From: Lactobacillus pasteurii DSM 23907 = CRBIP 24.76
GTDB taxonomy: Bacteria > Bacillota > Bacilli > Lactobacillales > Lactobacillaceae
Assembly (NCBI RefSeq): GCF_000297025.1
Contig: NZ_CAKD01000029.1
Span: 1 to 64,000 of the forward strand
Length of the DNA: 64,000 bases
Direction: 5' to 3'
The notes beneath the pieces were generated by a model. The model was given only the letters and a program-made list of their open reading frames with translations, searched no databases and was not told where the DNA came from. Positions 3,252-24,608 of this stretch are shown one piece after another. Numbering within the stretch: position 1 is the stretch's first letter; every line of letters begins with the position of its first letter. A program made the position numbers and the translations under genes.

Positions 3252-3340
3252 AACTTAACAACTTTAGCGAAAAAAGATCATACATTATTCACATCTATTA
3301 GCTATATTAAGATTATCGAAGTGAAGAAGGAATGATAGAC

Positions 3341-4576
3341 ATGGAAAACAAAAATAACGAAAGAATACAAAACAATTCTAGAAAAAAGAACAACCCATTA
3401 GTTAAAACTGCTATTGTTGGCGTAGTTGCAGGACTTCTTGGAGGAGGAGTTTCTTATGCAGGCTTAGCTGCAGTCAATGGAGACTTCAATACTACTAATA
3501 CTGCTCAAACTACGGTCAGCTCTTCTAGCGCAAAACTATCTAAGACAAGCGCCAAGACTAGTTCTGCCATGACGACTGCTTATAACGATGTTAAGGGTGC
3601 GGTTGTGTCAGTTATCAACTTGAAATATGGCGGCGGTCAATCAAGCTCAAGCTTATCAAGTTTATTTGGCGAGCGCAGCTCAGAATCTGATTCATCAAGT
3701 AAGAAGCTTCAAACCTATGCCGAAGGTTCAGGCGTAATTTATATGAAATCTAACGGCAAGGGCTACATCGTAACTAACAACCACGTTATTTCTGGTGCTG
3801 ATGCCGTTCAAGTTATGTTGCAAAACGGCAAGACCATCGATGCTAAAGTTGTTGGTAAAGATAGCACTACCGACCTAGCAGTCTTGTCAATTGATGCTAA
3901 ATATGTAACGCAAGTTGCCCAATTTGGCAACTCTAAGAGCTTGCAAGCTGGCCAGACAGTCATTGCCGTAGGTTCACCTTTAGGTAGCGAATATGCTTCA
4001 ACAGTAACCCAAGGAATTATATCTGCTCCAGCTAGAATGATTACCACTTCATCTGGTATTCAGCAATCCGTTATCCAAACCGATGCAGCCATCAACCCAG
4101 GTAACTCCGGTGGTCCACTTGTTAACTCAGCTGGTCAAGTAATCGGAATCAACTCAATGAAGCTGGCTCAATCATCAGATGGTACTTCAGTTGAAGGCAT
4201 GGGCTTTGCCATTCCAGCCAATGAAGTAGTAAATATCGTTAACCAATTAGTCAAAAAAGGCAAGATCACCCGTCCACAATTAGGCGTTAAGGTAATTGCC
4301 CTAAGCAATATCCCTTCAGCTTACAGAAGCCAATTAGGCATTGAAAGCAGCTTGAAGAGCGGTATCTATGTTGATTCTGTAACTAGAAATAGCGCAGCAG
4401 CTAGAGCCGGCATGAAGGCTAAGGATGTTATTACCAAGGTTAACGGCAAGTCTGTCAGCGATGTCGCATCTTTGCACACGATTTTGTATGCACACAAGGT
4501 TGGCGACACAGTAACGGTTACTGTCAACAGAAATGACAAGAACGTAAACTTAAAGGTAACTTTGGAAGCAAATTAA
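3341..4576 (+). CDS. htrA: Membrane-anchored serine protease HtrA (DegP-like)
   Basis: A 411-residue envelope quality-control protease. A basic N terminus and one membrane anchor (about residues 22-42) are followed by a Ser/Thr-rich linker, a trypsin-like domain and one PDZ domain in the last 100 residues. The triad is visible as His in TNNHVISGAD, Asp in STTDLAVLSID and Ser in NPGNSGGPLVNSAG. ATG 3341 is preferred over ATG 3332 because the AAGAAGGA ribosome binding site ends at 3331, directly against 3332. The linker before the protease domain has a poly-Ser tract (SSSSLSSLFGERSSESDSSS). A strong terminator follows. Confidence 0.95.
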   Translation: MENKNNERIQNNSRKKNNPLVKTAIVGVVAGLLGGGVSYAGLAAVNGDFNTTNTAQTTVSSSSAKLSKTSAKTSSAMTTAYNDVKGAVVSVINLKYGGGQSSSSLSSLFGERSSESDSSSKKLQTYAEGSGVIYMKSNGKGYIVTNNHVISGADAVQVMLQNGKTIDAKVVGKDSTTDLAVLSIDAKYVTQVAQFGNSKSLQAGQTVIAVGSPLGSEYASTVTQGIISAPARMITTSSGIQQSVIQTDAAINPGNSGGPLVNSAGQVIGINSMKLAQSSDGTSVEGMGFAIPANEVVNIVNQLVKKGKITRPQLGVKVIALSNIPSAYRSQLGIESSLKSGIYVDSVTRNSAAARAGMKAKDVITKVNGKSVSDVASLHTILYAHKVGDTVTVTVNRNDKNVNLKVTLEAN

Positions 4577-4592
4577 TTAAAATTGAATAGGC

Positions 4593-4638
4593 AAAAAAGG
4601 CGATCTGAAGCTGTTTTAGCAGAAAGATCGCCTTTTTG
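4593..4638 (+). terminator. Rho-independent terminator after htrA
   Basis: A long inverted repeat (AAAAAGGCGATCT pairing with AGATCGCCTTTTT) closes a 17-base loop and ends in a T run, right after the htrA stop. Confidence 0.9.
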
Positions 4639-4720
4639 TTAACTATTAGCGTGTGTAACAGAATAAAGTTCGGAACTACAAATTGTCAAGTTTTGCTAAA
4701 TCACAGAAGATGTTGAAAAC

Positions 4721-5010
4721 TGTGGAAAAAACTGTGGATTGTGCATAACTCTAATAAAAACATGGGATAGAGGGTGTGTATAACTTGTGGATGGAGTTTG
4801 ACTTGCGAAATTATTTTTTTGCATTAAGATAGAGAAAGGCTTGATTTAATCGGTATTTATCAGTAAAATTTGTGAAAAATAGTTATCCCAAGCCAAAATG
4901 TGGGTAAAAATTTGAAAAAAATTTTTGCAAAGGGCGAGACCACTAAGTATAGATAAATTAAAAAAAATAGACACAAAATATAGATTTATCTTTTTCACAA
5001 CTGTGGATAA
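4721..5010. other. DnaA-box cluster between htrA and rlmH
   Basis: This 290-base AT-rich stretch holds ten 9-mers resembling the DnaA box TGTGNATAA/TTATNCACA. Three are exact: TGTGCATAA (4740-4748), TGTGTATAA (4775-4783) and TGTGGATAA (5002-5010). Four have one mismatch: 4721-4729, 4871-4879, 4899-4907 and 4991-4999. Three have two mismatches: 4733-4741, 4786-4794 and 4883-4891. No gene fits this region. An open frame runs through it into rlmH, but it has no ribosome binding site or family resemblance. The wal-htrA-rlmH block usually sits near oriC. I recall that a DnaA-binding cluster was reported upstream of rlmH (yydA) in Bacillus subtilis, which would make this a conserved regulatory site rather than oriC itself. 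No dnaA or dnaN is in the window. Confidence 0.7.
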
Positions 5011-5047: not shown

Positions 5048-5527
5048 GTGAATATCAAGATTGTCTGTGTTGGAAAGTTGAAAGAAAAGTACTTCAAGGA
5101 TGCGATTGCGGAATATCAAAAAAGGATGAGTCGCTTTGCCAAAGTGGAAATTGTCCAAGTTCCAGATGAAAAGGCACCTGAAAAACTCAGTCCAGCAGAA
5201 ATGGAACAGGTCAAAGAAGTCGAAGGCGAGCGCATTTTAGCTAAGATCAAGGACAAGGAATATGTTTATGTCTTGGCAATCAAGGGCAAGCAAAGAGCAA
5301 GCGAAGAATTTGCTAAAGAGATCAAGGATTTGACTACCTACGGTCATTCTGACCTTACGTTCGTTATTGGAGGCAGCCTTGGCACTAGTCCAGCTGTTAA
5401 CAAGCGGGCAGATGATTTGTTTAGTTTTGGCAAGTTGACCATGCCTCACCAATTGATGCGCGTGGTGCTAATGGAGCAGATCTACCGGGCCTTTATGATC
5501 AATACCGGTAGTCCATATCATAAATAA
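5048..5527 (+). CDS. rlmH: 23S rRNA (pseudouridine1915-N3)-methyltransferase RlmH
   Basis: The product is 159 residues, exactly the usual length of RlmH, a SPOUT-family enzyme that uses SAM to methylate pseudouridine 1915 of 23S rRNA. It begins [14 protein letters not shown], has the SAM-loop region [13 protein letters not shown] (usually GGxxG) and ends with the typical [18 protein letters not shown] and GSPYHK tail. The GTG start at 5048 has GGGGGA at 5036-5041 upstream. The open frame extends back to 4925, but that extension crosses the DnaA-box cluster and is not part of the family. A symmetric terminator follows. Confidence 0.96.
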
Positions 5528-7593: not shown

Positions 7594-7610
7594 GCCGTGC
7601 TTGAAATCAT

Positions 7611-7674
7611 CTTCCCTACGCTGGCATTATCCAGACAGGTTCAATGGGTATGTTCTCAGCCTAGTGGCACCCCG
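7611..7674 (-). ncRNA. TPP riboswitch (THI element)
   Basis: On the minus strand the segment contains the defining THI-box blocks in order: GGGGTGCC, GGCTGAGA, ACCC, GAACCTG and TAATGCCAGCGTAGGGAA. This is a compact thiamine pyrophosphate aptamer. It lies 40 bases upstream of the fused ECF ATPase gene and should shut the operon off when TPP is plentiful. Confidence 0.95.
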
Positions 7675-7854
7675 TTAATTAAGTTCATTTTACAAAATCT
7701 TAGCAGGGATGTCCATTAACTTGGATTTGTTAAAGCCTGCTTGCCCTATGATTATTGCTTTGATATTAAAAAGTATTTATTTGCTTTTAATAATTATAAA
7801 ATAGATGTATAATTATCTTAAGCGTTTTTACTGTCCAGGTAAGAGGAGGGAAAT

Positions 7855-24286: not shown

Positions 24287-24515
24287 AAAAAGGCCTCGCT
24301 ACAATAAAAGCGAGGCCTAGTTTATTCATCAGTAATTAAACCAAATCGTATAGCGCTCCCTGATATTCTCAGGACAGTCTACAGGATCTGCTCCTGTAGC
24401 CCAACCGAACTAACCCGCGAAAGTCAATTCGATTTCGGCAACAATTCTTACAATCAGCTTAATCATATTCGCGTACTAGGCTGATTTTCGTAATTGTCGC
24501 AACCTCTATTGCATT
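24287..24515 (-). ncRNA. Lysine riboswitch (L box) with terminator
   Basis: Minus-strand blocks match the L box in order: ATAGAGGTTGCGAC (about 24509-24496), TTGCCGAA, GGTTGGG, GACTGTCCTGAG and CAGGGAGCGCTAT, with the last closing helix P1 on the first (aptamer about 24347-24513). A strong terminator follows (AGGCCTCGCT pairing with AGCGAGGCCT plus a U run, 24319-24287), and then the transporter start. Lysine binding should end transcription early. Confidence 0.9.
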
Positions 24516-24608
24516 GGATATTTATTTAACTGAGGAAAATATTAGATTGTTTTTACGCAAATGTCAAGCGAAAACTTTTTATTTTTAATAAAAATATTTC
24601 CAGGGAAA

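Follow-up and report, generated by a model that had tools for sequence, protein, structure and literature searches.

A DnaA-Box Cluster in the htrA-rlmH Gap of Lactobacillus pasteurii and Its Recurrence Upstream of rlmH in Bacilli

Introduction

Near oriC, clusters of boxes for DnaA, the initiator of chromosome replication, are already known as a kind, and an instance in Bacillus subtilis has been described. According to the excerpts of PMC4447404, region 8 of the top 20 in B. subtilis is located upstream of yydA and downstream of yyzF and comprises 7 sites. The same excerpts state that ATP-DnaA binds the yydA region in vitro with a Kd of 0.16 uM, and that the yyzF-yydD operon is apparently repressed by DnaA. 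Likewise, yyzF-yydABCD is found among the DnaA-regulated operons in a printed list available in part.

As stated in the accessible parts of PMC5295017 and PMC13220808, the joint deletion of six non-oriC clusters in B. subtilis results in early initiation. Since a strong effect on initiation was obtained only with all six clusters gone (PMC5295017, in part), the role of these clusters is unsettled. Moreover, the excerpts of PMC13220808 describe B. subtilis as devoid of Hda, SeqA, IHF, datA and DARS. A further point of comparison is datA of E. coli, which is likewise bound by DnaA away from oriC and holds back initiation, a candidate role for the cluster described here. However, datA needs IHF and promotes the hydrolysis of DnaA-bound ATP (PMC13220808, in part).

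Here, we describe a candidate cluster of DnaA boxes in the window, i.e., the whole 64-kb stretch of Lactobacillus pasteurii DNA that was analysed. It lies upstream of rlmH, the gene that we take to be yydA; the clusters that precede rlmH in B. mojavensis and B. glycinifermentans support this assignment. The earlier note on this DNA had pointed to a DnaA-binding cluster upstream of yydA in B. subtilis, and region 8 in the excerpts of PMC4447404 bears this out.

Results

The Gap between htrA and rlmH Harbors a Cluster of DnaA Boxes

The gap between htrA and rlmH is 474 bp in length, non-coding, and has a GC content of 31%. A scan with the consensus TTATNCACA for an exact box yielded the three exact and four one-mismatch boxes that the earlier note had counted within 290 bases, and placed them, as claimed, in the non-coding gap between the two genes (Table 1). 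All of them are located on the minus strand except for the box at 4991. The number of two-mismatch sites had to be revised: three had been reported, and the same consensus gives 10 in 4721-5010, which individually carry little weight. As an observation, the box cluster of the gap is therewith confirmed. The DnaA protein of this genome is present and carries the sequence GGKDHTTVMHA, the DNA-binding signature.

Table 1. Positions of genes, DnaA boxes and other sequence elements in and around the htrA-rlmH gap, numbered along the window.
Feature	Position	Strand	Sequence	Remarks
htrA	3332..4576	+		serine protease, trypsin-like and PDZ domains; left neighbour; Pfam Trypsin_2 1.4e-32, PDZ_2 4.6e-20
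Likely two-way terminator	4594..4637			13-bp perfect inverted repeat 3' of htrA, T runs on both strands
Promoter-like sequence	4660..4689	-	TTGACA-18-TATTCT	oriented back to the htrA terminator
Candidate DnaA-box cluster, whole	4721..5010			3 exact and 4 one-mismatch boxes
DnaA box, one mismatch	4721..4729	-	TTTTCCACA	consensus scan
Two-mismatch box	4733..4741	-	CAATCCACA	conserved TGTGGATTG adjoining exact box 4740
Exact DnaA box	4740..4748	-	TTATGCACA	consensus scan
Exact DnaA box	4775..4783	-	TTATACACA	consensus scan
Two-mismatch box	4786..4794	-	CCATCCACA	11 bp from exact box 4775
Weak sigma-70-like promoter	4841..4869	+	TTGATT-17-TAAAAT	directed to rlmH
DnaA box, one mismatch	4871..4879	-	TTTTTCACA	consensus scan
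DnaA box, one mismatch	4899..4907	-	TTACCCACA	consensus scan
DnaA box, one mismatch	4991..4999	+	TTTTTCACA	consensus scan
Exact DnaA box	5002..5010	-	TTATCCACA	41-49 bp 5' of the rlmH start
rlmH	5051..5527	+		23S rRNA methyltransferase, SPOUT family; right neighbour; PF02590 E 1e-57

For htrA, an alternative ATG start at 3341 is possible. The inverted repeat downstream of htrA encloses a loop of 18 nt; because of this loop the terminator hairpin is absent from the terminator scan, and it was found by a repeat search. Promoter-like matches in the stretch are not in excess over chance (3 versus 3.1 expected). A one-mismatch DnaA box follows directly after the -10 element of the plus-strand promoter-like sequence, and the -35-like element of the minus-strand one adjoins the boxes. 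Since the latter faces the likely htrA terminator hairpin, any transcript starting from it would be very short.

The folding energy of the gap RNA was no better than that of shuffled sequences (z 0.16), and no Rfam family was found in the gap at gathering scores. Elsewhere in the window, a TPP riboswitch (7596-7684, minus strand, 56.8 bits; gathering score 54.3) and a lysine riboswitch (24343-24516, minus strand, 83.6 bits) were observed. The 64-kb window contains no tRNA genes.

The Cluster Exceeds Chance Expectation and Stands Out in the Genome

As a control, the 474-bp gap was subjected to 2000 dinucleotide shuffles. On average, the shuffled gaps contained 0.04 exact boxes and 0.9 boxes with no more than one mismatch, as compared to 3 and 7 in the real gap, and neither real count was matched by any shuffle (0/2000). 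Within the window, 4721-5010 is the top 290-bp stretch with 7 boxes of at most one mismatch; the runner-up contains 3. Taken over its full length, the window is not rich in boxes, with 5 exact boxes versus 3.0 expected and 56 boxes with at most one mismatch versus 72.5 expected. Moreover, at least three exact boxes were present in none of 1392 AT-rich background stretches of 400 bp, versus 53 of 80 regions at rlmH. The excess over AT-rich gaps that the earlier note had made a test of its proposal thus holds.

Genome-wide, 54 exact boxes are distributed over 1,905,398 bp in 30 contigs, and at least two of them within 500 bp occur only at oriC and in the htrA-rlmH gap. The comparison of box density with oriC, likewise proposed before, leaves the gap as the sole exact-box group besides oriC in a ranking built on exact boxes. 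The exact boxes of oriC are located at C23:33919 and C23:33980, and dnaA at C23:34271.

Groups of at least three exact boxes within 500 bp outside oriC were also sought in four other genomes with full data. The sole such group is the one at rlmH in G098 (3 boxes) and the one behind htrA in G049 (3 boxes); G045 has the group at rlmH (6 boxes) and one other (3 boxes), and G009 has no such group and only one pair. In 25 genomes of the family we observed 37 same-orientation pairs within 30 bp: 18 pairs, from 14 genomes, precede rlmH, 9 belong to oriC and 10 are located elsewhere. The reversed control pattern gave a single match, and such pairs are missing in 7 of the 25. Hence, as in the B. subtilis type of cluster, several boxes lie close together outside oriC and above chance, and the neighborhood is that of the yydA (rlmH) cluster, with the boxes upstream of rlmH here as well as in Bacillus loci.

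Exact Boxes Upstream of rlmH Are Widespread in Bacilli

The gene rlmH was found in all 151 Lactobacillaceae genomes searched. Upstream stretches were extracted for 150, and one that came from the wrong side of the gene was set aside. Three sets of 700-bp regions upstream of rlmH were compiled: 149 from these 151 genomes, those of 80 hand-picked genomes of other Bacilli families, and those of named loci, the best 80 of 566 relatives. The sets are not independent, because they share genomes and many close relatives, so that related species are counted repeatedly. In Lactobacillaceae, at least one exact box was present in 133/149 regions, at least two in 125/149 and at least three in 110/149. The corresponding counts were 50/80, 44/80 and 30/80 for the other Bacilli and 74/80, 69/80 and 54/80 for the named loci; by comparison, at least two exact boxes occurred in 22 and at least three in 2 of 2285 background stretches of 700 bp. 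The conservation over a wide distance that had been surmised from the single sequence was thereby found, in Lactobacillaceae as well as in other Bacilli.

This abundance depends on the motif itself. When all 560 orderings of the motif, the real one included, were compared, the real one ranked first both in the 149 family regions (567 exact boxes versus a mean of 6.2) and in 60 regions of other Bacilli (132 versus a mean of 2.2). Similarly, the 80 named loci contain 270 exact boxes in 55.7 kb upstream of rlmH versus 77 in 900 kb elsewhere, that is, exact boxes are 57 times denser upstream of rlmH than in the rest of these loci. The named genera bearing boxes comprise Lactobacillus, Lactiplantibacillus, Limosilactobacillus, Weissella, Pediococcus and Leuconostoc as well as Streptococcus, Enterococcus, Bacillus, Priestia, Exiguobacterium and Sporolactobacillus. 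Exact boxes are lacking from the 700 bp before rlmH in 30/80 other Bacilli and 16/149 family regions. Among the named loci, all three Lacticaseibacillus loci have no exact box before rlmH, and the same holds for S. sanguinis, E. gallinarum and Paenibacillus albiflavus. One of the 30 box-less other Bacilli, L188, has four boxes further upstream, at -1009 to -722.

In addition, several loci show particular arrangements. In L155 and L159 (family f2, genus g43), the upstream boxes are accompanied by two further exact boxes within the coding region of rlmH, at +333 and +389. The named Weissella loci L235, L242, L244, L247 and L249 contain 4-8 exact boxes within 700 bp before rlmH and no htrA match in the available DNA. 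In L187, L196, L313 and L317 (family f12, genus g52, which we take to resemble Staphylococcus), 3-4 exact boxes are present 5' of rlmH, and rlmH lies 30-40 kb from dnaA. SCC elements integrate at the 3' end of rlmH. An Enterococcus cassette paper also names rlmH.

The Boxes Are Oriented and Helically Spaced

The 150 gaps of the family contain 556 exact boxes, of which 434 are carried by the strand opposite to rlmH and 465 read TTATCCACA. The spacing between same-orientation exact neighbours was determined for 128 distinct pairs at most 60 bp apart in 289 regions, with identical stretches removed and related species still recurring: 50 pairs are spaced by 9-13 bp, none by 14-18 bp, 36 by 19-22 bp and none by 23-27 bp. 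The two populated classes correspond to about one and two helical turns, as cooperative binding along a single face of the helix would predict. Upstream of the 9-mer, A followed by G is preferred (0.70 and 0.55, respectively; 289 regions).

An alignment of 11 Lactobacillus gaps revealed that the conserved blocks largely coincide with the boxes, chiefly in the arrangement TGTGGAAAA-N3-TGTGGATTGTGCATAA (window 4721-4748), together with TGTCAAG. The latter, at 4684-4690 the complement of the -35 part of the minus-strand promoter-like sequence, is invariant in all 11 sequences. The box at 4721..4729 reads TGTGGAAAA, TGTGGATAA or TGTGTATAA within the genus. In many of the Bacilli examined, one box or a tandem pair spaced by 12-13 bp is located at about -60 to -36 before rlmH; many boxes of the named loci lie 100-400 bp upstream of the gene.

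A second motif was noticed in these gaps. CGAAC is enriched in the htrA-rlmH gaps of 39 named Lactobacillaceae loci (73 in 18.7 kb versus 549 in 420 kb elsewhere), and five control 5-mers are without enrichment there. With CGAAC-N4-GTTCG, which we take to be the LexA consensus, and at most two mismatches, 149 LexA-like sites were found in the 289 regions, versus a mean of 43 and a maximum of 83 for permuted palindromes. They are located 155-181 bp before rlmH in Levilactobacillus, Lentilactobacillus and Limosilactobacillus. The gap of the window contains one GTTCG near 4669, and no LexA-like site at this threshold occurs in the window.

rlmH Mostly Lies Close to dnaA

In the genome under study, a draft of 30 contigs, dnaA is on a contig other than that of the cluster. 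Four congeneric genomes, each in one contig, have rlmH 85-107 kb (4.5-5.5%) from dnaA. Among 61 genomes, the distance amounts to at most 5% of the carrying contig in 46 and at most 16.2% in 59, with a median of 1.6%. In two genomes of genus g10, one of them G009, rlmH lies 48-49% of the genome from dnaA, and the htrA-rlmH gap is 47-49 bp long without boxes. The number of boxes showed no trend with the distance from oriC in the 61 genomes (Spearman 0.01, p 0.92), which gives no help to a dose model. In genus g19 the two genes are about 6 kb apart; cluster and oriC are therefore close together.

The Cluster Can Persist When Either Neighbor Is Missing

Fourteen named loci are without an htrA match in the available DNA. 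In 11 of these, one with only 415 bp upstream, 3-8 boxes are kept at rlmH; the other three, all Lacticaseibacillus, have no box at rlmH.

Conversely, htrA was located in 13 of the 16 family genomes that are box-less before rlmH (the remaining three belong to genus g10) as well as in G014 and G150. Within 1.5 kb after htrA, at least three exact boxes were observed in 9 of the 13, one in G083 and none in G021, G089 and G036. In G052, G110 and G134, htrA and rlmH share a contig and are separated by no more than 2.6-4.2 kb, which points to an insertion between them. In 11 family genomes, htrA and rlmH are on different contigs or at least about 10 kb apart. The separation is 18 kb in G049 and G132, about 212 kb in G080 and 10 kb in G036, and the genes are on different contigs in G107, G011, G058, G083, G021, G089 and G150, drafts in which an assembly break is also possible. 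Six of the 11 (G049, G132, G080, G107, G011 and G058) carry 3-6 exact boxes in the 1.5 kb that follow htrA but lack them before rlmH. G083 has a single box behind htrA, and G021, G089, G036 and G150 have none there (the rlmH flank of G150 lies outside the data). A second HtrA relative is encoded in G021, G058, G089 and G150, and no boxes follow it. Five of the six genomes that keep the cluster belong to genus g12 and one to g22, and therefore about two events account for them.

Neither htrA nor rlmH is required for the retention of the cluster. These cases, few and not all in agreement, suggest that retention concerns an oriC-proximal site of DnaA binding and not the operator of a single gene.

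Discussion

The htrA-rlmH cluster is probably an oriC-proximal sink for DnaA, the counterpart of the B. subtilis yyzF-yydA cluster, which would also repress the promoters that it covers. Judging from its boxes, we infer that the copy in the window binds DnaA and acts in this way. DnaA would bind to the phased boxes on the minus strand and spread cooperatively over the gap. Being probably near oriC, the locus would double soon after initiation and draw DnaA from the new origins, whereby re-initiation would be delayed. The DnaA complex would at the same time cover the promoter-like sequences of the gap and may repress them, including that of rlmH where rlmH is still adjacent.

The main rival to a sink with additional repression is a pure rlmH operator. 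In this case DnaA would primarily repress or time rlmH, so that ribosome maturation would track the state of replication, and titration would be a by-product. Control of rlmH by the cluster is plausible. The yyzF-yydD operon of B. subtilis is apparently repressed by DnaA (PMC4447404, as excerpted), the promoter-like sequences lie inside the gap, and a box or tandem pair often precedes the rlmH start by 36-60 bp; since boxes overlap promoters, transcription control stays an alternative. The retention of the cluster with rlmH in 11 of the 14 htrA-less loci and the low number of boxes, fewer than three, behind htrA in 5 of the 11 genomes with separated genes likewise speak for an operator. However, control of rlmH leaves the six genomes unexplained in which the cluster stays behind htrA after rlmH has left, in about two independent events, and the many boxes 100-400 bp upstream of rlmH go beyond the need of a single promoter. 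Titration thus fits the cases of moved neighbors somewhat better, and we regard a primary operator as possible but on the unlikely side. In this genome the cluster is unlikely to control htrA, since it is situated 3' of that gene and, as it appears, past the htrA terminator hairpin. The named loci of Streptococcus and Enterococcus are arranged differently: there htrA and rlmH are divergent, and the cluster could cover htrA.

A more far-reaching proposal is that the cluster represents an ancestral control site of the Bacilli whose place near the origin is maintained in its own right, namely a helically phased platform for DnaA assembly and the Firmicutes equivalent of datA/DARS2 of E. coli, which would actively set the state of DnaA beyond a passive sink, with promoter repression being secondary. 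This proposal we consider rather doubtful.

It is very improbable that the cluster is a second origin or a part of oriC that has been displaced. The proximity of rlmH to dnaA in genus g19 and in three genomes of family f3 (2.5 kb), apparently streptococci, could point in this direction. The cluster shares the box consensus with the oriC of its own genome, but oriC has TAGTAGTAGTAG (DnaA-trios) in the dnaA-dnaN gap, whereas DnaA-trios were not found beside the boxes of the rlmH gap, which is without TAGTAG. Since a DnaA-trio is missing, the cluster is probably not a second origin. Moreover, TAGTAG occurs in 79 of the 289 regions versus 84, 83 and 102 for three control hexamers, and the window has no switch in GC skew. 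Finally, a chance product of an AT-rich gap, to which the GC content of 31% might have pointed, is refuted by the shuffle, background and permuted-motif controls and has practically no probability left.

The predicted sink resembles the yyzF-yydA cluster in its position upstream of rlmH (yydA), its several TTATNCACA boxes and its location outside oriC. It differs in that the small gene yyzF lies inside the B. subtilis stretch, and in that six non-oriC clusters are reported for B. subtilis, as far as the excerpted sources go, versus one exact-box group outside oriC in L. pasteurii. In the literature searched, part of it in excerpts, we found no report of the breadth across Bacilli, the spacing statistics or the persistence without either neighbor; the original articles of Okumura 2012 and Ishikawa 2007 might contain one.

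If the cluster is widely conserved and the sole one in some lactobacilli, its removal alone would put initiator titration to the test against less redundancy, and the genomes with a moved rlmH or htrA could distinguish a sink from a promoter role.
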